Made by a program: the position numbers and the translations under genes
IMG/VR virus record: IMGVR_UViG_3300004151_000006
Location: 64,001 to 128,000 of that record
Reading direction: 5' to 3' (one strand)
Origin: a virus
DNA length: 64,000 nt
In this document: in pieces, positions 14,623 to 41,330 of the stretch
Numbering within the stretch: the stretch's first letter is position 1
Layout of the letters: each line of letters opens with the position of its first letter
Notes under the pieces: generated by a model
The model's input: the letters and a program-made list of their open reading frames with translations, nothing else
Databases searched by the model: none
What the model was told of the DNA's origin: nothing

Positions 14623-16674
14623 ATGGCTGAATTCATCAAATTCAAAACTGCTGTAGCTAAACAATTTAAACTGATGTGTGAAAGTAATATATTGTATCGG
14701 GTAGATGTAAGTAAAGATGAATTGTGGGAAACTTATTTGGAATCTTATCCTGAAGAAACTAATCAAATTTATAAAGTGCGTAGAGAATATGATTGTAATT
14801 ATTGTAAGCGATTTATTCGTACAATTGGTGATGTGGTGATCATTACTCCTGATAATAAGTTGATGTCTATCTGGGATATCGATGTGGATGTACCCCATTT
14901 TCAATTGGTAGCTGATAAGATGTCTGAGTTGGTAAAGTCAAAACCTATTTATAGTAAATTCATGCATATTGAACGTGTGGCTGGTGTAGATAAGAATTTC
15001 TATGAAATCATCAATCCTGATGAAAGTAAAAGTACTGGTACATATGAACACTTCTTTGTAAATATCCCTGACATTTATGTTGCATCTGAAACTACTATCA
15101 ATGAAATTACTAATATGGTACGTACTGGTCAACAAGTATTTAAGCGTGCGTTGGATACTATCAACATTGAAGCTTTGGATGTAGTATTGGAACTCATTGA
15201 TCAAAATACTTTAGAACGTGGTGAAGAATTCAAAGCTATCGTTGAACGATTCAAAGATTTAAAGATCGAATATGAAAAATTAACCAATGAAGAAGAAAAA
15301 GAATTGTGGGCATGGAATACAAGTGTTAATACAGCCAATGGTCTTGTACATATTCGAAATCATGCTATTGGTACATTACTCATTGATTTATCTGAAGATA
15401 CTGAATTGGATGAAGCAGTACGTAAGTTTGAATCGGTGATGGCACCTGAGAATTATAAACGTACCAAATCTGTTGTTACAAAGAGTATGATTGATAAAGC
15501 CAAAAAGACTATCACTGAACTTGGATATACTTCTGCTTTGGAACGTAGACCAGCCACTATCAATGATATCACTGTCAACAATATCTTGTTCGTAGATAGA
15601 AACATTACGCCAAAACTCAATGGTGATGTATTTGATATGCTTGCTAAGACTACTAAGGAAAAGAAACAGTCTTTTGATAAAGTAGAAGATGTGACCATCG
15701 ATACATTTGTAAAAGATATTTTACCCAATATCAGTACATTGGAGATGATGGTGGAAAATAAACATAGCAATAATTTCATGACACTCTTGACAGCTAAAGA
15801 TCCCACTGCTAAATATATGTTTAAATGGGATAATCCTTTCTCTTGGTCATATCGTGGTGAGACAGCAGATGCTATCAAAGAACGTGTAAAGGCTGCAGGT
15901 GGTAGTGTGACTGGTGATCTGTGTATCAGATTGGCATGGGATAATGAAGATGATTATGATCTCCATGTACGTGAACCTAATGGATATGAGATCTTCTTTA
16001 TAAATAAAGGACGTATGTCTCCAAATGGTGGTATGTTGGATGTGGATAAAAATGCTCAAGGATATACTCTTACAACTACACCTGTGGAAAATGTCATCTA
16101 TACTAATCGTAGAAACATGCAAGAAGGTATCTATCTAGTATATGTACATAACTATTGTCAGCGTCGTAATGTGGATTATGGGTTTGAATTGGATATAGAT
16201 TATCTTGGTAGTGTGACAAAATTTAGTTGGGATAAGCTGTTTAAAACTAATGAACGAGTCAATGTGGTAGCATTTAAATATACATATGAAACTGGAATTG
16301 AAATTATGGATTCTATCCCAGCTAGTGATATGTCTAAGATCATTTGGAATATACCCACACATAAATTTGTAAAAGTGAAAACTATGATGTACTCACCTAA
16401 CTATTGGGATGATCATGGTGTTGGTAATAAGCATTATTTCTTTGTACTCAATGATTGTAAATGTGATGAAGCTGTCCGTGGTTTTTATAATGAATTCTTG
16501 AAAGAAGAACTTCATCTTCATCGTAAAGTGTTTGAAGTGTTGGGTGATAAACTCAAGATGGGTGTTGAAGATAATAGCACTCTTTGTGGTGTTGGATTTT
16601 CTAGTACACTTAGAAATGAAATTGTGTGCCGTGTGACTGGGGCATTCACTCGAGTCCTTCGAGTGAAGTTTTAA
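14623..16674 (+). CDS. Large protein with a DUF2135/YfaP-like domain, 683 residues
   Basis: The start follows AAGGAGGATTACCA. Residues 1-400 are helical and charged without recognised motifs. From about residue 425, GGSVTGDLCIRLAWDNEDDYDLHVREPNG, then GGMLDVDKNAQGYTLTTTPVENVIY and EGIYLVYVHNY, follow the pattern of DUF2135-type beta domains ('D.DLHV..P.G', 'GG.LDVD', 'G.Y.VYV..Y') that occur in surface and von Willebrand-like proteins. An appendage or surface role in the virion is plausible. It has its own promoter box, so it may be strongly expressed. Confidence 0.7.
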   Translation: MAEFIKFKTAVAKQFKLMCESNILYRVDVSKDELWETYLESYPEETNQIYKVRREYDCNYCKRFIRTIGDVVIITPDNKLMSIWDIDVDVPHFQLVADKMSELVKSKPIYSKFMHIERVAGVDKNFYEIINPDESKSTGTYEHFFVNIPDIYVASETTINEITNMVRTGQQVFKRALDTINIEALDVVLELIDQNTLERGEEFKAIVERFKDLKIEYEKLTNEEEKELWAWNTSVNTANGLVHIRNHAIGTLLIDLSEDTELDEAVRKFESVMAPENYKRTKSVVTKSMIDKAKKTITELGYTSALERRPATINDITVNNILFVDRNITPKLNGDVFDMLAKTTKEKKQSFDKVEDVTIDTFVKDILPNISTLEMMVENKHSNNFMTLLTAKDPTAKYMFKWDNPFSWSYRGETADAIKERVKAAGGSVTGDLCIRLAWDNEDDYDLHVREPNGYEIFFINKGRMSPNGGMLDVDKNAQGYTLTTTPVENVIYTNRRNMQEGIYLVYVHNYCQRRNVDYGFELDIDYLGSVTKFSWDKLFKTNERVNVVAFKYTYETGIEIMDSIPASDMSKIIWNIPTHKFVKVKTMMYSPNYWDDHGVGNKHYFFVLNDCKCDEAVRGFYNEFLKEELHLHRKVFEVLGDKLKMGVEDNSTLCGVGFSSTLRNEIVCRVTGAFTRVLRVKF

Positions 16675-16703: not shown

Positions 16704-17138
16704 ATGGCTATGATCACTGACAACATCTTCGAAAGCGCTACCCGTCTTGGCCTGACTTTCTCCACTTCTGTGGGTGAACTCATCGTCACTGATATTTGGC
16801 AGCTGCCTCTTCAGGGTAGCCGTTGTAACTTGGATGCACTGCTGGTGGATCTCCATAGTCAGCTCAAGAAGGATGAAGAGACTATCACCACCTTCATCCC
16901 GGAAAAGCAGCAGATCACTACTGCTCCTACGGCTGACCAGTTGAACAAGCTGCGCTTTGATGTGGTGAAGCATATCTTCGACGTCAAGTTGAAAGAAGCC
17001 AATGATGCCAAAGAGCTGCAACGCAAGCGTACCCTCAAGCAGGATCTCCTGGCTATCAAGGCCCAGCGTGAAAAGGACAACCTGGCCTCCAAGTCCGATG
17101 AGGACATCGATGCCCTCATCGCTGGGCTCGATGCTTAG
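16704..17138 (+). CDS. Conserved phage protein of unknown function, GC-rich codons, 144 residues
   Basis: The start follows CTTGGAGGATACTCCCA. The N-terminal half (FESATRLGLTFSTSVGELIVTDIWQLPL) matches the general look of a small protein common in tailed phages ('F..A.R..LrF.t..G.l.v.dLW.LpL', then LD.....L...LK..EE); the recognition is from memory and has no known function attached. The C-terminal half is a charged helix, likely coiled coil. Codons end in C or G far more than in flanking genes, which suggests strong expression tuned to a GC-richer host, or recent gain. Confidence 0.75.
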   Translation: MAMITDNIFESATRLGLTFSTSVGELIVTDIWQLPLQGSRCNLDALLVDLHSQLKKDEETITTFIPEKQQITTAPTADQLNKLRFDVVKHIFDVKLKEANDAKELQRKRTLKQDLLAIKAQREKDNLASKSDEDIDALIAGLDA

Positions 17139-19127: not shown

Positions 19128-19191
19128 GTATAACATAAAGTCATTCATTTTTAAAACCTGAAAAGATAATGTGAACCATTTGGAGGTTATT

Positions 19192-20277
19192 GTGGAAAAT
19201 ATTTCACACGATTTAGTAAAACATAGAAAATTAAATATTATTATGGATGGACAATTTGGTTCTACTGGTAAAGGGAGTTTAGCTGCATGGTTGGGTACTA
19301 TATCACCAGTTGAAATATACGTAAGTAATCTTAGTCCAAATGCTGGACACACCTATGATTTACAAGATGGATATGGTCCTAGAGTAGTAAAACAATTACC
19401 TATTGGTGGGATTATTAATAAACGATCACAGATTTATTTATCTCATGGATCAATCATCGAACCAAAAGCTTTATTAAAGGAAATAGAAACATTTAATGTT
19501 GATAAAGACCGAATATGCATTGATCCTAGAGCTGCTATTGTTACCGATGAATGTAAAGCTTTAGAAAAAGATAATTCTTCTTCAGTAGCTAAGATAGCTA
19601 GTACACAGAGTGGTACTGGTGTAGCACTTAGTCAAAAAATCATGCGTAGTGCTAAATTAGCAGAAGATATTCCAGAGTTAAAAGATATGATACATGAATT
19701 TGATTTAATGGAACATTTACAATTAGGATCAACTGCAGTTATGGAGACATCACAGGGTTTTGATCTTGGATTAAATTATGGACTTAGTTATCCACATTGT
19801 ACCTCTAGAGATGTGACACCATCTCAATGTTTAGGTGATGCAAAAGTGCATCCAAAATTCTTAGGTAATGTATTTCTTACTTTAAGAACATATCCAATAC
19901 GAGTGGGTAATTTGAAAGTTGGAGATATTACATATGGTGAAAGTGGACCATTTTATCTAGATTCTAAAGAGCTGAGTTGGGAAGAATTGATGGTCACACC
20001 AGAGAAAACTACAGTCACTCAACGTATACGTAGAGTAGCTACATTTTCACCAACACAATTGAAAAGAACGATATATTACACTAAACCAAAACATATATTT
20101 TTGAATTTTATCAACTACATCTTAACTGAAGAATATATTGAAATTATAATAGATGCATTCAGACAAATAAAACAATTTCCAAGTTTATTAGGATTCGGTA
20201 GGAGTATACTTGAAATATCACGAGCAAGAAATTTAACAGAATCCAAAGATATCATGTATGCACAATTATGTAAATAA
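19192..20277 (+). CDS. purZ: Adenylosuccinate synthetase family, PurZ-like (2-aminoadenylosuccinate synthetase candidate)
   Basis: The protein has 361 residues, with a GTG start after TTGGAGGTTAT. PurA landmarks are present: the P-loop region MDGQFGSTGKGS (residues about 18-29), NAGHT (50-54), a TSQGFDLGLNYG segment matching the PurA 'GAQG..LD...GTYP' loop, IRVG, and RIRRVATFSPTQLKR. In PurA the P-loop reads GDEGKGK with a catalytic Asp; here the Asp is Ser (S24), the change reported for phage PurZ enzymes that accept dGMP and lead to 2,6-diaminopurine DNA. The GTP-specific TKLD motif is replaced by LNFINY, which would fit an ATP-using PurZ rather than a GTP-using PurZ0. The length (about 360, against about 430 for bacterial PurA) also fits the archaeal/phage branch. 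Activity is inferred. No other Z-DNA gene (DatZ, MazZ, DpoZ) is evident in this window. Confidence 0.7.
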   Translation: MENISHDLVKHRKLNIIMDGQFGSTGKGSLAAWLGTISPVEIYVSNLSPNAGHTYDLQDGYGPRVVKQLPIGGIINKRSQIYLSHGSIIEPKALLKEIETFNVDKDRICIDPRAAIVTDECKALEKDNSSSVAKIASTQSGTGVALSQKIMRSAKLAEDIPELKDMIHEFDLMEHLQLGSTAVMETSQGFDLGLNYGLSYPHCTSRDVTPSQCLGDAKVHPKFLGNVFLTLRTYPIRVGNLKVGDITYGESGPFYLDSKELSWEELMVTPEKTTVTQRIRRVATFSPTQLKRTIYYTKPKHIFLNFINYILTEEYIEIIIDAFRQIKQFPSLLGFGRSILEISRARNLTESKDIMYAQLCK

Positions 20278-22257: not shown

Positions 22258-22513
22258 ACCTGGCTGTTCACCCCAAACAAGGAAGCTCATGGTGCCCACA
22301 TACACCATAGGTATAAGACAGCTGATCCTCATCTATCCTACACCCATAGGATATTTGAGATGAAATATATTTAGATCTATATTTTTTTTTCATGATGAAA
22401 GAAATAAACTATATACTGTGAGTGATCCCATTATATATTCAAAACATCTTATGTCTATAGATACTCACACTAGTAATAGTGTTTACTATATCATTTGGAA
22501 AGGAGTCAAGCAA

Positions 22514-23305
22514 ATGGATGCATCTTGGAAATTTGTAGTGGAGGCTATGTCTGTAGTCGATGGTCGTATGATCAAAGGACTCAAGCCTGATGCTCAAGGA
22601 TACTACCATGATATCCCTTTGATGGGACTAGGTATGTGTGCTCGTAGTGGTATCTATTACAATCCTAAACCTATCATCGATGCTATCCGTTTACCAAAGA
22701 GTACATTCAATATGAAACTCACTGATGGTAATCTCTTTGGATGTATCAATCATCCTCCTACCTTTAAGAAAGAAGATATCCCTCTCATGTTAGAGATAGA
22801 TCAAAAAGAAGTCTCTCATCATTTCAAAAAGATCTATAGTGGTGATCTAGGTAATGACACTGGACTCATCTTAGGATGTCTTCGTCCTTGGGGTCCCTAT
22901 GGTCAGTACTTAGAGACCTCACTGCAAGATGAACATGTCAATACCTCATTCTCTGTACGATCATTGTGTAAACAGTATATGGAGCCCAACACTAGACGTA
23001 TGTGTCGTGATGTCGAGATCTTAGTGACGTTTGATTGGGTCAATGCTCCTGGATATAAAGAGGCTAGTAAACGCTATGTACCTGCTATGGAGAGTTACAC
23101 TATTGATATCATCCCTGAAGAGTTCATTGCTGCTGTAGAGATCTGTGGATGTGAGTCTATCAAAGACATTGATCTCATGAGAGTGTTTGGTATGAGTCAG
23201 ATCGAGATCGGTGAGATCCGTGGTGAGTATAGAGCTGGAAGAAAGTCATTCATTGGCACTGATGGGGATAGACATAGCTTGGTCCATGCACTGTTGGGAT
23301 GTTAG
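22514..23305 (+). CDS. Probable prohead (head maturation) protease, 263 residues
   Basis: The start ATG at 22514 follows AAAGGAGTCAAGCAA; a longer GTG frame from 22418 lacks a ribosome site. WKFVVEAMSVVDGR opens the protein, then LFGCINHPP carries the His expected of the herpes/T4 gp21-type prohead protease fold ('GE..HP'). SHHFKKIYSGDL...LILGCLRPWGPYGQYLETSL follows the 'SH.I......G.l.il.t..G..l' strand pattern, and NTSFSVRSL matches the 'vS.RG' serine segment. It is directly followed by two ClpP-like genes. Catalysis is inferred from pattern only. Confidence 0.55.
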   Translation: MDASWKFVVEAMSVVDGRMIKGLKPDAQGYYHDIPLMGLGMCARSGIYYNPKPIIDAIRLPKSTFNMKLTDGNLFGCINHPPTFKKEDIPLMLEIDQKEVSHHFKKIYSGDLGNDTGLILGCLRPWGPYGQYLETSLQDEHVNTSFSVRSLCKQYMEPNTRRMCRDVEILVTFDWVNAPGYKEASKRYVPAMESYTIDIIPEEFIAAVEICGCESIKDIDLMRVFGMSQIEIGEIRGEYRAGRKSFIGTDGDRHSLVHALLGC

Positions 23306-23313
23306 GAGGATAT

Positions 23314-24051
23314 ATGTTTAAAGTACCTAAGATGCTTGATGGTGAAATCGAATCACTCCCTGTAGATCCTTTGGAGATCCCAGAGCCTACACCAGAATCT
23401 ACTCCAATTCCAGTGAAGACAGAAGATTACAGTGACCAATATTTACATAGTCTCACTGATGCTAAACTCATCCCTACTAAAGCTCTCACTATTGAGCATA
23501 CTGATATCATGGGTCCTATGTCAAAGTGTCCAGTCTTTATCCATGAGCTCCAAGATGGGAGTCTGCATTGTATCGCATATGTGATAGGTCAGATCGGTGA
23601 TGTCAACGATTATCTTGATCTCATTGATATGATCACAGTACTACGTGAGCAAGATAAGATGCGAGTATATATTGATAGTCCTGGTGGATATGTGGCTACT
23701 GGAGCACATGTGGCTAGTGCTATGTCTTTGTGTAATGGTGAAGTCACTACTGTAGCAAGAGGTTTTTGTGCATCAGCTGCATCCCTCATGTGGTCAGCTG
23801 GACACAAACATCAACTCACCCCATTTTCTTTATTCATGTACCATATGAGTAGTCATGGTGATATGGGTAATAGCTTAGGTATCCGCAATCGTGCTGATGA
23901 TATGATCAGATATGTCAAGACTACATTACTCCGTGTACCTTTAGAAAAAGGTCATATCACTCCTGAAGAATTAGATCAGATTTGTATCAAAGGTGAAGAT
24001 CAATATATTGATGCAAAGACTATGTATCAGCGTCTTCGTAAAGGAGTCTAG
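23314..24051 (+). CDS. ClpP-like serine protease, 245 residues
   Basis: The start follows TTAGGAGGATAT. After a Pro/Glu-rich N-terminus, the ClpP core runs from about residue 75. YIDSPGGYVATGAHVASAM matches the 'IYLYINSPGG.V..G.AIYD.M' strand and helix. GFCASAASLMWSAG carries the nucleophile (S154) and FMYHMSSHG the His (H177); the Ser-His spacing is 23 against 25 in ClpP. An Asp in KGEDQYIDAK fits the third residue. S14 peptidases in phages can serve as head maturation proteases; here it could also be a regulatory protease. Paired with the next gene. Confidence 0.85.
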   Translation: MFKVPKMLDGEIESLPVDPLEIPEPTPESTPIPVKTEDYSDQYLHSLTDAKLIPTKALTIEHTDIMGPMSKCPVFIHELQDGSLHCIAYVIGQIGDVNDYLDLIDMITVLREQDKMRVYIDSPGGYVATGAHVASAMSLCNGEVTTVARGFCASAASLMWSAGHKHQLTPFSLFMYHMSSHGDMGNSLGIRNRADDMIRYVKTTLLRVPLEKGHITPEELDQICIKGEDQYIDAKTMYQRLRKGV

Positions 24052-24054
24052 TAT

Positions 24055-24825
24055 ATGAGTCAATCACCTTCACCATATGGGTTTTTAAAAGGATTGATGA
24101 TCAATATGGATGACATCCCTGCTGATCCTTTGGTAGTAGAAGAGACTCCCATTGAACCTATTGATACTCATCCTGATGAGACACCTGATATCACACATCG
24201 TGTAGATGGAGTCACTATAGGTACTGAGAGTATCTCATCTTTCTATCAATCATTTCAAATGGAAAAACAAGATCCACTCACTATAGAACAGAATGCTCTC
24301 AATACTCCTAGTAAAATGGGTATGTTCAACACTGTAAAACCCATGAATCACATACCCCAGATACGTACTACTGACCAGGTCAATTTCAGAGTATTCCTCA
24401 AAGCTCAACATGAATTTACAGATGAGTATATCACCAGGTTATGTAGATTCTTAGATAGTCGTACACCCAATCAAACTATCACATTTTATCTTGGTAATAG
24501 TTTATCATCTAGATACACCATGATCATTGGATCTGTCTTGTCATCTATCATGTCTTGTCCAGCTAAGACGATAGCTATTGCTGCTGGATGTTGTGGTGTA
24601 CCTGAGTCTATGATGTGGTGCTTTTGTCAGGAAAGACATATCGCTGAATATAGTGCACTCACTTTTGGTGGTACCAATCTCATCACCCACTATTCTTTTT
24701 ATAAATACTATTTAGAAGTCTGTTTTGAAAGAGCTGTGGAAGTGGGTATATTGAGTAAAGAGCAAGTGGATACTATTTGGAATGAAAATAAAGAGATCAT
24801 GATCACATATGTAGAACAGCAATAG
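24055..24825 (+). CDS. ClpP-like paralogue lacking catalytic residues, 256 residues
   Basis: It starts 3 nt after the previous stop, with AAAGGAG upstream. The core FYLGNSLSSRYTMIIGSVLSSIM aligns with the SPGG strand and helix of its neighbour. GCCGVPESMMWCFC replaces the GFCASAASLMWSAG nucleophile motif, and ALTFGGTNL replaces the FMYHMSS His motif, so Ser and His are both lost. The N-termini of both proteins share a P-x-D-P-L...E-x-TP pattern. This is like the ClpP/ClpR pairing of active and inactive subunits known in plastids and cyanobacteria. Confidence 0.7.
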   Translation: MSQSPSPYGFLKGLMINMDDIPADPLVVEETPIEPIDTHPDETPDITHRVDGVTIGTESISSFYQSFQMEKQDPLTIEQNALNTPSKMGMFNTVKPMNHIPQIRTTDQVNFRVFLKAQHEFTDEYITRLCRFLDSRTPNQTITFYLGNSLSSRYTMIIGSVLSSIMSCPAKTIAIAAGCCGVPESMMWCFCQERHIAEYSALTFGGTNLITHYSFYKYYLEVCFERAVEVGILSKEQVDTIWNENKEIMITYVEQQ

Positions 24826-24833
24826 TGATATAT

Positions 24834-24861
24834 TGGGATGGGGGCCCAAGCCCCCATCCCA
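24834..24861. terminator. Palindromic terminator
   Basis: A 12-bp stem (TGGGATGGGGGC arm) with a 4-nt loop closes the protease operon; a short T-run at 24876-24879 follows. Confidence 0.7.
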
Positions 24862-24876
24862 TATGCTGATCATCTT

Positions 24877-24901
24877 TTTACAAATATATATAATCAAAGT
24901 G
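24877..24901 (+). promoter_or_regulatory. AT-rich phage promoter box (copy 6)
   Basis: TTTACAAATATATATAATC lies about 45 nt before the GC-rich two-gene unit at 24932. Confidence 0.55.
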
Positions 24902-24931
24902 AAGATAAACTTAAAGCCTAGGAGAAACACC

Positions 24932-25228
24932 ATGGCAAGTTATAATTTTAGCCTCCCCGGCCATTGCATGTCTTTCATTTCGAAGTTGCGGAAGCATCGT
25001 AATGACCCGCGTCGTTTGGTGGATTACATTCTTGTAGCCTTCGATACCACTGATCCTACCCATCCAAAGGAGCACCCCATGTGGGAGCATCTGGAGGAAG
25101 CCATTGCTGTCTGCAAGCAATATGGGTGGCAGTTCAGGACTATGTCCTGGAAGGATCAGGGGATCCAGGCTGTGGCAATATCCCCAGAAGAAGGATATTA
25201 CCATTCCAAGTTTCAACACAGCCATTAA
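24932..25228 (+). CDS. Unknown protein, 98 residues, GC-rich
   Basis: The start follows CTAGGAGAAACACC. It is soluble, with DDPxHPxxHPMWEHLEEAIAVCKQYGW-like content in the middle and a His-rich C-terminus. Codon choice is GC-rich compared with surrounding genes and like the MYG1 gene downstream, with which it is probably co-transcribed. No family recognised. Confidence 0.7.
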   Translation: MASYNFSLPGHCMSFISKLRKHRNDPRRLVDYILVAFDTTDPTHPKEHPMWEHLEEAIAVCKQYGWQFRTMSWKDQGIQAVAISPEEGYYHSKFQHSH

Positions 25229-25254
25229 ACCTTCTAACCTAAACGAGGTATATC

Positions 25255-26136
25255 ATGCAGCGCATTATCACTCACTCCGGTAAGTTTCACGCTGACGAAA
25301 TCATTGCATGTGCCATCCTTCGCATGCTCAATCCACAGATCGAGATCATCCGTACCCGCGACACCAGCATCATCACCGACGATGATATCGCGGTCGACTT
25401 CGGCGGGATCTATGATCCCGAGAAGTATCGATTCGACCATCACCAAAAGGACGCCCCCAAGCGTCCCAATGGCAAGTCCTACTCCAGTGCCGGCATGGTC
25501 TGGAATTCCCCCCAGGTCCACTGCATGATGATGCAACTGGGCATGCCCAGCAATCTGCTCTCCGAAATCGTAGCTAAGGTTGATGAGAGCTTCATTGCCC
25601 ACATCGATGCGATCGACTCCGGGGAAGGATCTCTCGAAGGCTACAGTTTCAGCGCAGCCATCGGGTCCTTCAACACGTTCAATCTCCAGGATGGAGAAGA
25701 CGTGTGTTTCATGAAGGCCCTGGACTTTGCGCTGCAATTCCTGCCAAATATCATCCATGAGACTTATCTCCGCCTCAGTGAGGCGGAGTATGTCCGCGAT
25801 GCCGATACGACGTTCGATGGCAAGGTCATCGTCCTTGGTCGGGGGGTCCCATGGATCGAGACCGTCCTGACCGAGGCGAAGTTCGACAATGCCGAGTTTG
25901 TCATGTTCCCTCATATTGATGGGGTGACATGGAGACTCCAGGCCATCCCCAAGGAGATGGGGAGCTTCGAGAAGCGTCGAGCTTTGCCTGCCTCTTGGGG
26001 CGGATTGAATGGTCAAGACCTGGAATACGTCACCGGCGTGAAGGGTGCCGTGTTCTGTCACAAGGCCCTGTTCATTTGCGGTGCTAATAGCTTTGAAGCC
26101 ATGTTTGACATGGCTGGGTTGGCAGTGTCGCAGTAA
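25255..26136 (+). CDS. MYG1-family metal-dependent hydrolase/exonuclease, 293 residues
   Basis: THSGKFHADEIIACAILRML (residues 6-25), IIRTRD, then DIAVDFGGIYDPEKYRFDHHQ with an Asp and a His pair, SYSSAGMVW, and a C-terminal FCHKALFICGANSFEAMFDMAGLA together match the MYG1 family (UPF0160), which is related to DHH phosphoesterases. Eukaryotic MYG1 has been described as a 3'-5' RNA exonuclease; phage members are likely to act on nucleotides or RNA. The metal ligands are in place (H.D of FHADE, D of VDFGG, DHH). GC content is far above the window average. Confidence 0.85.
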   Translation: MQRIITHSGKFHADEIIACAILRMLNPQIEIIRTRDTSIITDDDIAVDFGGIYDPEKYRFDHHQKDAPKRPNGKSYSSAGMVWNSPQVHCMMMQLGMPSNLLSEIVAKVDESFIAHIDAIDSGEGSLEGYSFSAAIGSFNTFNLQDGEDVCFMKALDFALQFLPNIIHETYLRLSEAEYVRDADTTFDGKVIVLGRGVPWIETVLTEAKFDNAEFVMFPHIDGVTWRLQAIPKEMGSFEKRRALPASWGGLNGQDLEYVTGVKGAVFCHKALFICGANSFEAMFDMAGLAVSQ

Positions 26137-26143
26137 TTTATAT

Positions 26144-26177
26144 CTGCATGGGGGCCCATCCTTGGGCCCCCATGCAG
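26144..26177. terminator. Bidirectional palindromic terminator
   Basis: A 15-bp stem (CTGCATGGGGGCCCA arm) with loop TCCT stands between the converging MYG1-family gene and the minus-strand chemoreceptor gene; a T-run follows at 26185. Confidence 0.8.
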
Positions 26178-26190
26178 TACTGTGATTATT

Positions 26191-28221
26191 TTATTTTTTC
26201 ATTTCTTGGATCACCATATCTAAAGTCTGGGTTTGATCAGATAAGGTGTGTATAGCTTTTGTAGAATGTTGCATAGCTGTAAGATTTTGTTTAGCTATAT
26301 CTGCTGTAGAGATGATGAGTCTACCTATTTCTTCAGCAGTAGCAGATTGTTCTTCAGCAGCTATAGCAATGGATTGTATTTGACTAGTAGTACCATCAAT
26401 AAGAGTATAGATCTCAGAGAGTGTATCACCACCTATCTTGACACGTTTATCTATTTCATTGATAGCTGAAGCTACTTTCTCAACATAATTAATACTTTTT
26501 AATGTACTATCTTGAACAGTGGTAATGGTGGTTTCAATATCACGTGTAGCTACTTGTGTACGTTCTGCTAACTTTCTTACTTCATCAGCCACTACAGCAA
26601 AACCTTTACCAGCTTCTCCGGCGTGAGAACTTTCGATTGCCGCGTTAAGTGCTAATAAATTAGTCTGATCTGCAATATGTGAAATAGTTTCAATGATCTC
26701 ATTGATACCACCGACTTGATCACCTAATACATGAATATCATTTTTAAGGATGATAGCTAACTCTCGGATACCATTGATTTCACTGATGATAGTTTGAATA
26801 ACAGTAGTTCCATCATGTGCTTTCTGTTTAGCTATAGATGCTGATTCACTAGTGTGACTGCTATTTTTAGCTACTTCTAAGATGGTAGCATTCATTTCTT
26901 CTACTGCTACTGCTGTTTCATCCATCTGAGTAGATTGTGCTTCACTACCACGAGTAGATTGTTCTATTTGTGTGGATAAAGATTCAGTGTGATTAGCTAT
27001 CTCTCTGACTGTAGTGTCTAATTTGATAGCAGCTTGGTGGATACCATCTTTGAGTGCTTGCTCAGCAGCAGCTTTAAGCCGATTGACATCTGTGATATCT
27101 TGGATGAGTTCAATATATCCGATGGTATCACCATGTCTATTTTTGAGTATGGAAGTATCCACCATGTAATCATTTTCTGGTATGCCAGGTATATTGAAAT
27201 GGCATTTTGTATTACCTTGTTTACATTGTTTTACTGCGCAATCAGTTTCATTACAGATGGTAGTACCTAAAGATATACAAGCTTTTCCTATATAAGTTTC
27301 TTTATCAAGATGAAAAGTCTTGAGAGCATGATCATTAAGATATGTGATATATTTTTCATTACTGACTACCATGATAGGAAAACTAATAGAGTTCAATACA
27401 TTTTCATACCAATGAAGTTTATCCACTACTGTATCCAATGCTTTATTGAGATACTTTGATGTTTTACCTATTTCATCATCACTGTTGACCTGGAGCCTTG
27501 TAGTGAAATCACCTTGAGAAAAAATGATAGCTGCATTAAGTATCTTCTTTAAAGGTACACTGATCTTTTGTACAATGAAGATACTGATAGCTATACCAAT
27601 CATAAAAGATAAACCAAGTACAATCAATATAGTATCCATATCACGATTGACAATACGTTGTGTCTCTATCTTAGCTAGTGAAGTAGATTCTTTAGTATCT
27701 TTGATGATAGCTAAGATCTCATTGAACATTTGACCGTTGACACGATTTCCAACAGTATAACAATAATCAAAAGCATTTTGATATAAATCAAGATTATTAA
27801 GATCATTTTCCCATGTATGTATCATATCAAATATCTTATTGTTTTCTCTTTTAGCTTCATCTAAAGTGGTAGTGAATTTCTCCCATAATACCTTTTCTTT
27901 ATATCCTCTGGGTATAGTACTGAGTGTTTTGATTATTTCAGTATATTTATCTCTATGTAATTTGATATCCTCGTATTGTTTAGCTCTTTGTTCTTTAGTG
28001 ATATTTCTTTTAAGCAACATAGTCTGTGCTAACAATATTGATTGAAAATGATAGGGTAAAATATTGAGTGCTTCTAAACTTGGTAGATGTGTTTCTGTGA
28101 TAGTGCTGAGTGATTCCTCTGCATCCTGCATCCCAGTGTATCCTACTATCCCACTAATAGATGAAATACAGATCAGGGCCATAGTACCTATGATCAGTTT
28201 AAGTTTTAAAGAGATGTGCAT
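26191..28221 (-). CDS. Methyl-accepting chemotaxis protein with HAMP and PAS domains, 676 residues
   Basis: The start on the complement follows TATAGGAGGTAGT. TM1 is about residues 7-29, a helical periplasmic sensor about 30-195, TM2 about 198-219, and HAMP about 220-272 (VPLKK ... GDFTTRL ... DDEIG). A PAS domain spans about 275-380 with a Cys cluster (C315, C323, C328, C333, C340), and the signalling domain runs from 381 to the end. The hairpin tip is complete: [21 protein letters not shown] then [13 protein letters not shown]. There is no C-terminal CheR pentapeptide. Architecture and the PAS Cys cluster resemble receptors typical of Desulfovibrio-like bacteria. The gene is AT-rich like the phage, not a recent GC-rich gain. 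It should insert in the inner membrane and couple to host CheW/CheA. Confidence 0.92.
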
Positions 28222-28286
28222 ACTACCTCCTATATATGTTGTGTGCGTATAATATCTGAGTCATCAATACATTGAAATCCATGAAT

Positions 28287-28311
28287 ATACAAATATATAT
28301 TACATATAGGA
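28287..28311 (+). promoter_or_regulatory. AT-rich phage promoter box (copy 7)
   Basis: TACAAATATATATTACATATAGG lies about 42 nt before the regulator gene at 28339, in the divergent gap next to the chemoreceptor gene. Confidence 0.6.
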
Positions 28312-28338
28312 TACAACCATTTATTTAGAGAGGTATGT

Positions 28339-28653
28339 ATGTCTGAAAGATCTCGTATTTGTTTTACTGTTGATAGTGATCTGGTAGAGCACATCATCAT
28401 GCGGCTAGAAGCTACCTGGGGAATTAAAAATGCTTCAGTGAATCCCATTTTCTCAGGTACTCATGGTGAGTACCTAAAGATGCTTCGAAAGAAGAAAAAG
28501 ATGACCCAACAACAATTAGCTACACTTTCTGGGGTACATCAAGTGAATATCACAATGATGGAACGTAACAAACGTACTATTGGTTTAAAGAGTTCAATAG
28601 CTTTAGGTGAAGCCCTTGGTGTCAACCCGTTATCATTTCTTATGGAGGAATAG
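28339..28653 (+). CDS. Xre-type helix-turn-helix regulator, 104 residues
   Basis: The C-terminal half is a clear Xre/Cro HTH: YLKMLRKKKKMTQQQLATLSGVHQVNITMMERNKRTIGLKSSIALGEALGV. The N-terminal 40 residues (ICFTVDSDLVEHIIMRLEATWG) are a small alpha/beta extension. The stop abuts the helicase ATG, so the two are translated from one transcript. The regulator could control its own divergent region, including the chemoreceptor gene; no operator repeat was obvious. Confidence 0.85.
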   Translation: MSERSRICFTVDSDLVEHIIMRLEATWGIKNASVNPIFSGTHGEYLKMLRKKKKMTQQQLATLSGVHQVNITMMERNKRTIGLKSSIALGEALGVNPLSFLMEE

Positions 28654-31113
28654 ATGATTTCATTACCTATCGATAAATACTATCCGGAGATCATGGCTTC
28701 TATCAAAGATTATCCGGTGACACTCATTGTGGGTGAGACTGGGTCTGGTAAATCAACTCGTGTTCCTCGGATGTGCATTGAAGATGGTCATTCTTGTATC
28801 ATCACTCAACCCAGACGTTTGGCTGCTATCAATGTGGCTAAGCGTGTGGCAGATGAACTCAATGGTGACTTGGGTGGTGTGGTGGGTTATTCCACCAGAT
28901 ACGAAAAGGAGTATTCAAAATATACTACTTGTTTATTTTGTACTGATGGTCTTGGTCTGGTGAGAGAGATGTTGACTGAACATAAGTTTGACATCCTCAT
29001 CTTAGATGAAGTCCATGAATTTAATTTATCTATTGAAGCCTTGTTGGCTTGGATCAAATATCAGTTGGATCATGGTGAAATGAATCGTAGATATGTACTC
29101 ATGTCAGCCAGTGTAGATGTGATTAAATTTAAAGAATATTTTGGTGAATATCTCCATATTTTAGAGGTTGAAGGTCGTACCTTTCCAGTGATAGATCACT
29201 CTGAAAAATATAGTAGAGTGATCTGTGATGAGCATGATGTATTTAAAGTGGTTGTTAATTTGATACATGAAGAAAAAGATATCCTTATGTTTTTGCCTGG
29301 TAAAAAAGAGATCTCTGATTATAAGCGTAGATTCAATGATGCTGGTTTAAATGCAGAGGTATTAGTGTTACATGGTGATATGACATATAAAGAACAGTGC
29401 TTAGCATTTGGAGAATATGGTAGACCTAGGTTAATCTTATCTACTAATGTGGCACAGACTTCAATTACACCAGATGTTGATGTGGTATTGGATTCTGAAT
29501 TGGAAAAGTGTATATTGATACGTGATGGTGTAGAAGGTCTTTATCTGCAACGTATCTCCAAAGCTGATGTGCAGCAACGAATGGGTCGTGCAGGTAGAAC
29601 CAAAGTGGGTGAATATATTTCATTTATTCAGGTAGCCAATTTAGATGTGGAAAGTTTGGTACAAAATGATTATGCCACACCCGAGATAGAACGGTTGTAT
29701 CTTGATCATGTATATCTTAAATTGTGTGCTGCTGGATTGGATCCGCTTCAGTTGGATTTCTTTCACAATCCCAATATCCGCCAATTGGCAATGGCTAAAA
29801 AAGGTCTTTATCAATTGGGTTGTATCACTTTTGATAGTGAAATTACGGAATTAGGTAAAATACTGGTGAAATATCCACTGGATGCACGTTATGCTAAGAT
29901 CCTTTATTTAGCATCTGAATATGGTGTCTTTGAACCCTGTCTTCAGATCATATGCTGTTTGATGTCAAATGTGAGATATAAATATCCCAGAAGAGATGTT
30001 TCTTCTGATCTTGAAGCATACGGTACATATTTACAATATACAAATAATAAATCTAATGATGAGTTGAAGCGTGCTGAGCTCAATCTTAAAGCACATTATG
30101 GTATGATAGAAATGTACAAACGCATGTTTAAAGATAAAAATATTGAAATCAATAATGATAATACACATGATGATTGGAATAAAATGCATGATACAATTGA
30201 ACGTATCTTCGTATCTTGTATGTTAGATAATTTATGGGCTACAGGTAATATCACATATGGAAATTTTTATCATTTGGATTCATTGAATGTCAAACAGAAT
30301 GTGTGTACTGAAGCAGATATTGTAGGTAGATCAGTTAATAAAAATTATAACAATACACACAATATGGTATGTTGTGTTGGTATCCCCATCGACATTCAAA
30401 TAAAAACTAGATATGGATACAATACTTTAAGACTTTTGAATTTCATTATTCCTTATCGTGATATTTGGATGGAATGGTTCCCTGATAAATTTAAATTGGA
30501 TTTGGAATTTAAAGAGAGTTTCCAATATAATGTGGTGGGGTATCCAATTATGAAATGTGGTAATATTAAATTAGGAAATACTCAATATAGTGGTTTAGAT
30601 TTTCATATTGTAGATAAATGCCCCACAGCATTACAGTACATTAAGTTCTTTAATATGCGCATAGCACAATATTTGAATTCATTTAAAGATGAATATAATG
30701 TAGTCCCTTCAGATAAATCTGTTGAACAATTGAATATACTCATCCTTGGTATGTTGAAAACATATGCACGTTGGAATAATTTTGAAATGTGGGATCCATG
30801 GACTAATCTTAGAATTTATCGTGGTAAACAACCCAATCAATATGGTGAAGTTAACCATTTTGCAGAATATAAAGAATTTACAGATGCTCGAGATGATATT
30901 CCTGAAGTAAAAGTGGATTATAAACAATATATTCCAGTGCCTAAAATGATTCCTAAAAAGGAGGTGCAACTTTGGCATTCTGTTAGTGCTGGAAAAGTAA
31001 TGTGTCCTAAAGGACATGTCATGAAGATGTCAAAAGCATTGGATCATGATCCAACTAAGTTATATTGCCCTATCTGTAAGACTGAGGGCAAGATCACTGG
31101 TCTTGGATCTTGA
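28654..31113 (+). CDS. DEAH-box RNA/DNA helicase (HrpA/HrpB-like), 819 residues
   Basis: Motifs in order: GETGSGKST (I, residues about 26-34), QPRRLAA (Ia), DEVHE (II, about 118-122), SAS (III), STNVAQTSIT (V) and QQRMGRAGRT (VI, about 308-317). These define a DEAH helicase of the HrpA/HrpB group. The HA2-like region follows to about residue 430. The remaining C-terminus is phage-specific and ends in a CPxGH...CPIC zinc-binding pair (about residues 789-812). It is translated directly behind the Xre regulator. A role in host or phage RNA turnover or translation is likely but unproven. Confidence 0.9.
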   Translation: MISLPIDKYYPEIMASIKDYPVTLIVGETGSGKSTRVPRMCIEDGHSCIITQPRRLAAINVAKRVADELNGDLGGVVGYSTRYEKEYSKYTTCLFCTDGLGLVREMLTEHKFDILILDEVHEFNLSIEALLAWIKYQLDHGEMNRRYVLMSASVDVIKFKEYFGEYLHILEVEGRTFPVIDHSEKYSRVICDEHDVFKVVVNLIHEEKDILMFLPGKKEISDYKRRFNDAGLNAEVLVLHGDMTYKEQCLAFGEYGRPRLILSTNVAQTSITPDVDVVLDSELEKCILIRDGVEGLYLQRISKADVQQRMGRAGRTKVGEYISFIQVANLDVESLVQNDYATPEIERLYLDHVYLKLCAAGLDPLQLDFFHNPNIRQLAMAKKGLYQLGCITFDSEITELGKILVKYPLDARYAKILYLASEYGVFEPCLQIICCLMSNVRYKYPRRDVSSDLEAYGTYLQYTNNKSNDELKRAELNLKAHYGMIEMYKRMFKDKNIEINNDNTHDDWNKMHDTIERIFVSCMLDNLWATGNITYGNFYHLDSLNVKQNVCTEADIVGRSVNKNYNNTHNMVCCVGIPIDIQIKTRYGYNTLRLLNFIIPYRDIWMEWFPDKFKLDLEFKESFQYNVVGYPIMKCGNIKLGNTQYSGLDFHIVDKCPTALQYIKFFNMRIAQYLNSFKDEYNVVPSDKSVEQLNILILGMLKTYARWNNFEMWDPWTNLRIYRGKQPNQYGEVNHFAEYKEFTDARDDIPEVKVDYKQYIPVPKMIPKKEVQLWHSVSAGKVMCPKGHVMKMSKALDHDPTKLYCPICKTEGKITGLGS

Positions 31114-31179
31114 TATATCTTTCTATAGGGATCTGAAATAATTCAGATTTCAAACACATCATCACTCAGGAGGATCACC

Positions 31180-31605
31180 ATGGGTAAGAAACTCATCGAC
31201 ATGACGGGGACCAAGACTGAAGACATGAGCATCGAGAACCGGATCACCGTTGGGATGTCCGAAGAGCTCATGCGCATAATGGCTCTGTCCGATGAGGCCA
31301 AGATCACCGTCATCGGTGACCTTGAAATCCTTTCCGATGCCGGGAAGGCTTATTTTAAGAAATACAGTGAAAAACTCGTCAATGACGAGATCTCTGGCAA
31401 GTACTATGCTGCAATGCATGTCACCAAACTGAAAGCTATGGTACCCCGTACCATTGATACCAACTACCGTGAGTACATTAAGTACCTGCGCAAGCTTTGG
31501 CGTCGCCGCAATGAACTTTCCGTCACCAACATCACGTTGGGCGACATCAGCAATACGGTGCTCCAGCAGCTGATGCCGCAAGTGGCGGAACAAGCCCAAG
31601 CCTAA
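31180..31605 (+). CDS. Unknown protein, 141 residues, GC-rich
   Basis: The start follows CAGGAGGATCACC. It is a mostly helical, basic protein (YIKYLRKLWRRRNEL) with codons much richer in C and G than the helicase and terminase genes either side. This may reflect high expression or later acquisition. No family recognised. Confidence 0.7.
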   Translation: MGKKLIDMTGTKTEDMSIENRITVGMSEELMRIMALSDEAKITVIGDLEILSDAGKAYFKKYSEKLVNDEISGKYYAAMHVTKLKAMVPRTIDTNYREYIKYLRKLWRRRNELSVTNITLGDISNTVLQQLMPQVAEQAQA

Positions 31606-31619
31606 AGTTCATTTCACCA

Positions 31620-31657
31620 GAGGAGGATGCATCCCATATGGGATGCATCCTCTCCTC
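31620..31657. terminator. Palindromic terminator
   Basis: A 13-bp stem (GAGGATGCATCCC arm) with loop ATAT, plus outer pairs around a bulge. A run of seven T occurs at 31672-31678. Confidence 0.7.
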
Positions 31658-31667
31658 AAGTGATTTC

Positions 31668-31694
31668 ACTATTTTTTTATATTATGCTATGAAA
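31668..31694 (+). promoter_or_regulatory. Possible AT-rich promoter, variant box
   Basis: TTTTTTTATATTATGCTATG is a weak variant of the recurring box, about 40 nt before the terminase start. Confidence 0.35.
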
Positions 31695-31720
31695 TCTTAA
31701 ATAGAATTGGGGGAATTTAT

Positions 31721-33967
31721 ATGTTGATGTTTGAATCAGATTTTACAAGACCGTTTTCTATTAAGTTGGGCCATGATGTATCTAGGACATTTTATCCTAG
31801 ATATCATGCCAATACAAAAAATGATAGTTTTATAAGAGTATGTATGATATTGAAAAATATGGGCGTAGAAAACCATTTATTCCCTTTAGGTATTTATCAT
31901 CATGAATTATTAGATGTAGATCCAAGATCTAATGATCTCTCAGATGAACAAAGACTCATGATAATGACAGAGATTAAGATTAATCCGTGGTATTATTTTC
32001 GAGAGGTAGTGAGAATCCCCACTACTGGTGGTGAACCAATCCCATACATTTTATCGAGAGCAAACTTAGCTCTTACGTGGTGTTATTACAATGGTATTGA
32101 TGTTGGCTTAGTACAACCTCGTCAAACTGGTAAAACTATTGGTACACAGGCTATCATGTCACATGTTATGTATTTCTTAGGATTTCACTTTGAAATAGCC
32201 ATGCTCACTAAAGATGGTGCCTTAATTAAAGACAACGTAAGACGTCTTCGGGATATTAAAGAAACATTACCAAAATGGATGATACTTAAAAATTACAATG
32301 GTAAAGATGAAGATAATAAAGAAGGACTTTCTTATACTTTTTTAGAAAATATCTATAAAACTTTTACCAATGCTATTGATGATGCAGGTGCTGATAAACT
32401 CGGTCGTGGTATGACTTCTCCCACTCAACATTGGGATGAAATTGCTTTCTTTAGATATATCTGGACAACATTTCCTGCTGCAGTGGCAGCTACTGGTGCT
32501 GCTCGAAAGAATGCTGCTGAACGTGGACTTCCTCATGCTAACATATATACCACTACTGCAGGTAACCCAGATAAAAGATCTGGTAAATTTGCTATGGATC
32601 TTTTTTTAGATTCATGTTTATTCACTGAGAAACTTTATGATTGTAAAGATCTTAATGATCTTCATAATACCGTAATTAAAAATAGTGTCCAAGGTACGAA
32701 GTCTGTCTATTGTGTATATTCACATAGACAATTGGGTTTCACTGATGATTGGCTTAGAGAACAGATTTTACGTACTAAAGCTACACAAGAAAAAGTGGAT
32801 AGAGATTATTTGAATTTATGGAAATCTTCTTCTGATGATGGACCTATTCCACCAGATTTATTAGATAAAATCAATAGAAATGTTATTGAACCCCTGTATA
32901 GTGAAGTGAAAGATAGATACATTCTTAATTGGTATCTCTCTGAACAAATGGTCAATTCTGAAGAATTTAAAAATCGTACGCTTATCGCTGGGCTAGATAG
33001 TTCAGAGATGATAGGTAGAGATTTTACTACATTTGTCATTCTTGATTCGTATGACATGAGTGTAGTTGGTACACTTCGGTGTAATGATTCTAATGTTATT
33101 AATCTTGGTAATCGCATAGCACAGATTATGTTGAAGTATAGAAAGATGATATTAGTACCAGAATGTAAATCTACTGGAGTAGCTATTGTAGATGCTATCA
33201 TCAATGTACTCAAAGAAAATGGTATCAATCCTTGGCAACGTATCTTTAATTTGGCAGTACAAAAGAAAGATGAAAGGGAGTTTGAAAATTTTAATATTCA
33301 TACAGAACCCACTGAAGGTCTTAATAAGAAGTTGTTTGGATTTAGGACTACTGGAGGTACTGGTTTATTTAGTCGTAATATGCTTTATAAATCCACAATG
33401 CTAAAAGCTATATATCTTAACTATTCCCGTGTCCATGATGAGATGCTCATTAAAGAATTCAATGGACTTCGTACTAAAAATGGTAGAATAGATCACAATG
33501 AAGATAGCCATGATGATATGATCATCTCTTATTTATTGGCTTGTTTCTTTATATTCTTTGGTAAGAATCTTCATCATTATGGGATCAAACCAGAACTCTT
33601 TTTACATAAAATTACCAATGATGAAGATGGTGTGGATAAGTATAAAAAACAAGAACAATTGGAAGTTCGTAGTCATATAGCCCAATTAGAACATGCTGTC
33701 AGAAGATCAACTTCGCATCTTGTACGTATGAGTTACGAACGTGAACTCAACGAAATAAAGAGATATCTTGATGATGGGATCATTGATGTAAAACCTATTG
33801 CCACTACTCAGTTTAAACGTGATAGTGAATTGGTGTCTACTTTTAATAAACCCGATACTGAGCAAGCAGTTAACTTATTATCTAGTGTATACACTGCCAA
33901 TAATATGAATACTTCAAAATACCAATATCCTCAATATAGGGTAGGCTATGGTGGCATAGTCAATTGA
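31721..33967 (+). CDS. terL: Terminase large subunit (T4 gp17-like), 748 residues
   Basis: The ATPase has Walker A QPRQTGKT (132-139) and Walker B HWDEIAFF (D239, E240), with a TTTAGN coupling segment (motif III-like). The nuclease domain opens with LIAGLDSSEMIGRDFTTF (D426), continues with LVPECKSTG and ends with DHNEDSHDDMIISYLLA, matching the RNase H-like acidic residues of TerL. It packages DNA into proheads and cuts the concatemer. The length is large, with a charged coil-like C-terminus after the nuclease. The start has only GGGGGAATTTAT upstream; a second Met three codons in is an alternative. Confidence 0.95.
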   Translation: MLMFESDFTRPFSIKLGHDVSRTFYPRYHANTKNDSFIRVCMILKNMGVENHLFPLGIYHHELLDVDPRSNDLSDEQRLMIMTEIKINPWYYFREVVRIPTTGGEPIPYILSRANLALTWCYYNGIDVGLVQPRQTGKTIGTQAIMSHVMYFLGFHFEIAMLTKDGALIKDNVRRLRDIKETLPKWMILKNYNGKDEDNKEGLSYTFLENIYKTFTNAIDDAGADKLGRGMTSPTQHWDEIAFFRYIWTTFPAAVAATGAARKNAAERGLPHANIYTTTAGNPDKRSGKFAMDLFLDSCLFTEKLYDCKDLNDLHNTVIKNSVQGTKSVYCVYSHRQLGFTDDWLREQILRTKATQEKVDRDYLNLWKSSSDDGPIPPDLLDKINRNVIEPLYSEVKDRYILNWYLSEQMVNSEEFKNRTLIAGLDSSEMIGRDFTTFVILDSYDMSVVGTLRCNDSNVINLGNRIAQIMLKYRKMILVPECKSTGVAIVDAIINVLKENGINPWQRIFNLAVQKKDEREFENFNIHTEPTEGLNKKLFGFRTTGGTGLFSRNMLYKSTMLKAIYLNYSRVHDEMLIKEFNGLRTKNGRIDHNEDSHDDMIISYLLACFFIFFGKNLHHYGIKPELFLHKITNDEDGVDKYKKQEQLEVRSHIAQLEHAVRRSTSHLVRMSYERELNEIKRYLDDGIIDVKPIATTQFKRDSELVSTFNKPDTEQAVNLLSSVYTANNMNTSKYQYPQYRVGYGGIVN

Positions 33968-40307: not shown

Positions 40308-41330
40308 ATGTCAGACATCATTCCACATCCGGATAACTCATGTGGTGGAAACTATTCTGATTGGTTAGATGTCATGCTTCTTCCGGAATGTAATGGACAT
40401 TGTTCTTGGTGTATTGAAAAAGATGGATATCATCCAGAAGAAAGAGCCAATGTAGATACATTGCTTGATAAAGTTAAATTGATTGGTAGAAAGAATATTG
40501 TGTTGCTTGGTGGTGAACCTTTTCTTTATCCAAATTTATTGCGATTAGTTAAAAGACTCCATGGAGATGGATTTAATGTATATATCACTACCAATGGTTC
40601 ATATATCACACATCCTATTTTTGAAGAGGTTGCACCATATTTGACTGGTATAAATTTTTCTATTCATCATCATGATTTACCTAGAAATCGAGTCATTACT
40701 GGGATCACTATAAATCAATATACATTATTTACTAAGATTCAATATTTGAAAAAGTTTGGTGTCAAAGTTAGATTTAATTGTAATTTGATCAGAGGACAAA
40801 TTGACACAGGTGTAGCATTTAATACCTATGTGATTTTCAGTAAAATGATGTATGCTGATTCAGTTAAGTTTTCAGAATTGTCTAATGTTGAACCTGAAGA
40901 TTTTGTCAGTATGAATGTCATTGGGATACCTGGATTAGATATCAATCTTTCTGCAGATCCTTTTATCCATGGATGTAGTAATAAATCATTCATCCACATG
41001 GAACAAATGATCCACCTTAAACAATCATGTGGTATCATTCAACATGGTATTGGTAGATCAGATCATAATGGTGTTGAATGTGTACTTAAACCAGTGTTGT
41101 ACTACGATGGATATATTTATTCTGGATGGAAAAGTAAAAATTGGAATGGTGAAAATATTGATTCTTTGTATGAAGCTAAGGATGTAACTGTTTATATGAC
41201 GAAAAGTAAATTTGAAGAAATCTCTAAATTGATGCCAGTCGTTGCAGAAAATTCATGTAGACGATCTACCCCATGTAAACAAACATATCAGTATACTGGT
41301 TGTCATAGTAGTGGGTGTGGGAGAGATTAA
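40308..41330 (+). CDS. Radical SAM enzyme, 340 residues
   Basis: The cluster motif CNGHCSWC (C28, C32, C35) has the CxxxCxxC spacing, followed by NIVLLGGEPFLYP (the GGE S-adenosylmethionine motif) and NVYITTNGSY. The C-terminus is Cys-rich (C around 227, 246 and 260, then SCRRSTPCKQTYQYTGCHSSGC), suggesting one auxiliary iron-sulfur site as in SPASM/twitch enzymes. The start follows AAAGGAGAAAACTAAAC. The substrate is unknown; the two paralogues upstream are the nearest candidates. Confidence 0.88.
   Translation: MSDIIPHPDNSCGGNYSDWLDVMLLPECNGHCSWCIEKDGYHPEERANVDTLLDKVKLIGRKNIVLLGGEPFLYPNLLRLVKRLHGDGFNVYITTNGSYITHPIFEEVAPYLTGINFSIHHHDLPRNRVITGITINQYTLFTKIQYLKKFGVKVRFNCNLIRGQIDTGVAFNTYVIFSKMMYADSVKFSELSNVEPEDFVSMNVIGIPGLDINLSADPFIHGCSNKSFIHMEQMIHLKQSCGIIQHGIGRSDHNGVECVLKPVLYYDGYIYSGWKSKNWNGENIDSLYEAKDVTVYMTKSKFEEISKLMPVVAENSCRRSTPCKQTYQYTGCHSSGCGRD

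Follow-up and report, generated by a model that had tools for sequence, protein, structure and literature searches.

An intact chemoreceptor gene in a phiKZ-like jumbo phage, with a putative role in the sensory arrays of its host

Among described chemoreceptors, Escherichia coli Tsr (b4355) has the familiar layout of a transmembrane segment, sensor, second transmembrane segment, HAMP domain and signalling domain with a hairpin tip, and contains no PAS domain. A methyl-accepting chemotaxis protein (MCP) on a plasmid of Lawsonia intracellularis (Desulfovibrionaceae; WP_263615842.1) is likewise without a PAS domain. Proteins of this type are also present in two isolated jumbo phages: the complete genome of Vibrio phage vB_VmeM-Yong XC31 encodes an intact MCP with dCache_1, HAMP and MCPsignal domains (QAX96201.1, annotated as hypothetical), and Asteriusvirus A4 encodes an annotated MCP (USL83455.1) that has the signalling domain and the whole tip and is without a recognised sensor or HAMP domain. 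Both proteins match the phage family phrog_8572, as does the receptor described here (E 9e-65), although the family is listed as of unknown function and its best match spans the signalling half. We found no paper on phage-encoded chemoreceptors in the open-access literature, and the jumbo-phage overviews that we checked do not contain the words.

The window analyzed here is a stretch of 64,000 nucleotides, bases 64001–128000 of a 286,688-bp IMG/VR virus record (IMGVR_UViG_3300004151_000006), and it contains one complete chemoreceptor gene, which is the only MCP gene in the record (Table 1). The record encodes homologues of the 201phi2-1 RNA polymerase subunits gp107 and gp129, DNA polymerase gp83, DnaB-like gp197 and SbcD; with a phiKZ-type terminase, its own multisubunit RNA polymerases and a DNA polymerase, the phage is, judged by its gene content, a jumbo phage and a distant relative of phiKZ. 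A bacterial contig, which the earlier note had named as the finding that would overturn its reading, is ruled out by the terminase, the polymerases, the head protease and the single MCP. A candidate of ~580 residues for chimallin (ChmA), the shell protein of the nucleus-forming Chimalliviridae (record positions 173537–175285), lies upstream of an RNA polymerase subunit gene, and is proposed from synteny only, with no sequence match; its single-sequence fold prediction has a pLDDT of 31. PhuZ was not found in the record.

Table 1. Features of the chemoreceptor locus (window coordinates unless a record is named)
Feature	Position	Strand	Basis or match
Phage-encoded methyl-accepting chemotaxis protein	26191..28221	-	ORF, translation, Pfam
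TM1, residues 7–28 (about)	28138..28203	-	hydropathy
TM2, residues 196–217 (about)	27571..27636	-	hydropathy
HAMP domain, residues 215–264	27430..27579	-	Pfam PF00672, E 2.8e-8
PAS domain (PAS_4), residues 276–379	27085..27396	-	Pfam PF08448, E 1.2e-6
MCPsignal signalling domain, residues 458–638	26308..26850	-	Pfam PF00015, E 1.2e-39
Shine-Dalgarno region, ATATAGGAGGTAGT ahead of ATG	28222..28234	-	read from sequence
Strong GC-rich hairpin between convergent MYG1 and MCP genes	26144..26177	.	-36.5 kcal/mol, z = -7.5
Cargo block: ORF 24833, MYG1, MCP, HTH, DEAH helicase, ORF 31180	24826..31720	.	gene order vs L008/L009
S80 head maturation protease, Clp protease-like gene and third gene (left border of insertion)	22418..24825	+	
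MYG1/UPF0160 homologue, GC3 0.69	25255..26136	+	Pfam PF03690, E 1.9e-66
Small HTH_3 protein, divergent from MCP gene	28339..28653	+	Pfam PF01381
DEAH-type helicase	28654..31113	+	Pfam PF00271/PF00270
phiKZ-type large terminase	31721..33967	+	35–36% to 201phi2-1, KTN4, PA7; phrog_2, E 6.5e-43
Intact MCP of related phage	G012:43497-45557		
Deletion scar of MCP in sister phage	G023:25650-25850		

The receptor gene encodes a full-length protein of 676 residues from an ATG start, and the reading frame, the order of Pfam domains and the hydropathy profile all agree with the minus-strand layout set out in the earlier note: two hydrophobic segments flank the sensor (4HB_MCP_1, residues 4–140, E 7.5e-12) and are followed by HAMP, PAS and signalling domains. 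The signalling domain scores 136.4 bits against a curated MCPsignal cut-off of 34.6, and an E value of ~1e-39 rules out a chance match. The cysteine cluster that had been noticed in the PAS domain is located at residues 315, 323, 328, 333 and 340, so that five of the seven cysteines of the receptor fall within 26 residues, with the spacing C-x7-C-x4-C-x4-C-x6-C. No PAS relative with the same set of cysteines was found in the plasmid collection or among the MCPs of viral contigs, and a single-sequence fold prediction of the domain is uninformative (pLDDT 39). The viral and genome contigs searched contain no close relative of the receptor as a whole, the sole genome-contig match being a distant Bacillus MCP.

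Alignment with Tsr places the hairpin tip near residue 526; a 28-residue length difference has to be allowed for when the receptor is matched to the crystallized fragment of Tsr. Nearly all of the checked positions that are common to other MCPs are kept, including those corresponding to Tsr N376, L380, N381, E385, E391, G395, V398, E402 and R404, and the hairpin tip that serves trimer and CheA/CheW contact is conserved. Tsr Arg388, a known trimer contact, is however a His in the phage receptor and is preceded by Ser-Ser, while Tsr Phe373 is an Asp. Ser-Ser-His is present in this receptor only among 212 MCPs compared, 200 of which have Ala-Ala-Arg; in the same comparison an MCP of a 504-kb phage has Ala-Ser-His, with Ser-His at the Ala387-Arg388 positions. 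The tip is thus intact, as had been claimed, but nonstandard in places. Glutamate pairs at about residues 441–442 and 622–623, one on each arm, are candidate adaptation sites, and their flanks fit a relaxed consensus only.

We identified no CheW/CheA domain, receiver (CheY/CheB) or CheR in the 286.7-kb record, which may be incomplete, and with no Che partners of the phage's own the receptor would need those of the host. In our proposal, the phiKZ-like jumbo phage acquired its chemoreceptor gene, which is of Desulfovibrionaceae type, and carries it within a cargo block flanked by the head-protease genes and the terminase. The protein would be made during infection and inserted in the host inner membrane, where its conserved tip would assemble into trimers of dimers, perhaps mixed ones, and would join the existing CheA-CheW arrays of the host. 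Inputs through the four-helix bundle and the Cys-bearing PAS domain, the latter plausibly reading redox state or a metal cofactor, would then bias host CheA output, and the swimming of infected cells may be shifted to the phage's favour. On the sequence evidence, we put the prospect of a functional receptor that enters the arrays of the host and biases the movement of infected cells at somewhat better than even, and the replacement of Arg388 by His in the tip counts against it.

That same substitution bears on an alternative, in which the protein joins or titrates host CheW and CheA without any useful sensing and locks their output in one state, for example to halt costly swimming or to alter motor bias. 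An unusual Ser-Ser-His variant at a trimer contact position would suit such a role, and there is precedent for viruses gaining by stopping motility, as HFTV1 lowers the expression of host motility and chemotaxis genes and so shuts motility down (PMC12542753). However, a protein that jams an array would have no need of HAMP and PAS domains or of an intact sensor in the periplasm, and related phages retain full sensors of different families; for these reasons we favor a working receptor and regard jamming as unlikely. As to what a working receptor might gain for the phage, chemotactic fronts can outrun phage (PMC12873837), and infection by the flagellotropic nucleus-forming phage PCH45 needs rotating flagella and not cheABWRYZ (PMC11797060). 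Taken with the behavior of HFTV1, these reports make a benefit after infection likelier than a benefit in adsorption.

The ~6.9 kb cargo block in which the gene lies is missing in the closest terminase relatives that we found (L008 and L009, 42%), where only 22 bp separate the terminase from the homologue of the gene at 24055–24825. The block is a mosaic, with GC3 near 0.68 in MYG1 and ORF 31180 versus 0.235 in the MCP gene, and MYG1 is compositionally foreign. Genes with GC3 of 0.56–0.69 in this phage of 34% GC are located at 25255–26136, 31180–31605, 16704–17138 and 24833–25228. The MCP gene is AT-rich like the phage, as originally described (34.2% GC, against a window mean of 33.9%), and its codon usage, at the 49th percentile among window genes, is phage-like; this could reflect either long residence, with adjustment to phage composition, or an AT-rich source, and the data fit both. 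A strong Shine-Dalgarno sequence (AGGAGG) precedes the gene. The hairpin in the gap where the MYG1 and MCP genes converge has no T run, and probably ends the transcript of at least one of the two genes. Neither sigma-70-like promoters nor a phiKZ-like AT motif occur more often than chance predicts. One half of the hairpin, ATGGGGGCCC, is also present at 24838, such that the two copies flank the MYG1 segment, and is perhaps a trace of the insertion of MYG1.

A second MCP is encoded within the same phage lineage, in two records (L023, IMGVR_UViG_3300035529_000008, and L024, 3300036942_000112) whose DNA polymerase is 38% identical to that of the window's phage and which share many collinear genes at 23–52% identity. 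The two MCPs are alike in belonging to phiKZ-like phages, in having signalling domains that are 38% identical, and in being sisters in the tree, albeit weakly (98/47); they differ in that the L023/L024 protein has a Cache-type sensor (sCache_3_3), has no PAS domain and is encoded at another genomic site. That site lies between homologues of the genes at 22.7–23.5 kb and 23.9–25.1 kb of the window's record, and adjoins a probable tail-fibre gene (judged by eye, in an ORF with no Pfam match); no MCP remnant is present at the corresponding position in the window's record. This distribution could result from a single insertion that later changed both place and sensor, or from two insertions. Two sister records (G023 and G034), at ~81% nucleotide identity, retain only a deletion scar: ~1.75 kb of the locus has been deleted, and what remains is part of the first membrane segment and part of the last ~60 codons, with a TAG stop between them. 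The scar indicates that the MCP is ancestral in the L023/L024 branch and has been lost once. Besides the window's record, intact MCPs are present in two of 50 DNA-polymerase-related records (L023 and L024) and in none of 11 terminase-related ones, counts that are lower bounds as many of the records are fragments. Because of this patchy presence and the loss in sister phages, such genes are best regarded as optional cargo, and retention of the full tip, offered in the earlier note as an argument for function, is a fair argument but a weak one.

These observations also bear on the prospect that a host gene was caught by chance in the cargo block and is a neutral passenger, useless or only briefly useful to the phage and bound for loss. 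Its rarity in the lineage, its lineage-specific insertion beside the foreign MYG1 gene and the decay in the two sister phages are what would be expected of a passenger, and the rarity and the decay also weigh against a working receptor. A passenger would not be expected, however, to keep a 676-codon frame open with phage-like codon usage and a good ribosome site while its MYG1 neighbor is foreign, nor would MCPs of different clades be expected in several unrelated phages. We therefore consider a passenger improbable. The open frame, and the fact that MCPs recur both in unrelated large phages and, at another site and with a different sensor, in a related phage, argue instead for a working receptor.

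The signalling domain agrees with a Desulfovibrionaceae type. Of the 4,381 plasmid records that matched, the best is that of the Lawsonia protein (44% identity over the signalling domain, 211 bits), with a runner-up at 151 bits among the matches listed, and in a 74-row tree the window MCP, the Lawsonia MCP, L021 and the MCP of phage contig L023 form a clade with 100/99 support. The Lawsonia protein shares the tip backbone, but is encoded on a bacterial plasmid and has another periplasmic domain and an Ala-Ala-Arg tip. Bacterial genomes are sampled thinly in these comparisons, and a closer cellular donor may have escaped notice. The Desulfovibrio-like affinity suggested earlier thus holds for the signalling half of the receptor, and the evidence does not extend to the PAS half. 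Bacteria also have Che-like pathways that are not flagellar, and as nothing in the sequence ties the receptor to flagella, it could conceivably feed a pathway controlling a second messenger, surface attachment or type IV pili; its closest relatives are however ordinary membrane MCPs, and we think this very unlikely.

MCPs are present in large phages well outside this lineage. Those of Yong XC31 and Asteriusvirus A4 belong to other clades than the window MCP, and a 504,279 bp virus record with a terminase (L106/G014) encodes a Cache-sensor MCP adjoining a tail collar gene. The positions of these three proteins in different parts of the tree point to separate acquisitions, although several of the branches are long. 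A 437-kb record (L189) contains an MCP fragment and has no terminase match. Most IMG/VR MCP matches were left out of the phage count, as the contigs on which they lie are GC-rich and may span the border between a prophage and its host's DNA, and the MCPs of Acinetobacter 'phage' MD-2021a and Microcystis 'phage' MaAM05 were rejected on account of their bacterial neighbors (proS, cheA and cheW; rpmA and rplU). The second MCP of the lineage with its different sensor and site, the deletion scar in sister phages, and the count of two intact MCPs in 50 related records are new, and repeated acquisition with different sensors, together with one loss on record, indicates that this is more than a single odd gene. 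A more general proposal, that capture of whole chemoreceptors has happened repeatedly in large lytic phages, which exchange the sensors and steer infected cells through host arrays, is a tentative one that we think has perhaps one chance in three of being right. If true, it would define a class of phage-encoded behavioral control: whereas viruses are known to cut host motility by turning genes down, a virus with its own taxis receptor would control behavior through the sensory array of its host, with an input of its choosing. The genomes of Yong XC31 and Asteriusvirus A4 are from isolated phages, are complete and contain intact MCPs, and the question can thus be tested without recourse to an uncultured phage.

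Several other genes in the window deserve mention. A PurZ homologue (19171–20277, plus strand) matches 6fm1 (E 1e-42) and PurZ of S-2L (7odx, 3e-40) and has a Ser in its GSTGKG motif, as does the best PDB match; the PurZ matches listed are all in small phages (39–68 kb), several of them bearing the annotation 2-amino adenylosuccinate synthetase. A phiKZ-like phage with PurZ may thus have 2-aminoadenine in its DNA; we identified neither DatZ nor MazZ as a partner. The gene at 40308–41330 (plus strand) encodes a phage radical SAM protein, and that at 14623–16674 (plus strand) a 683-residue protein (phrog_1735; 48% to Caulobacter phiCbK) that is strongly conserved among large phages of very different kinds.
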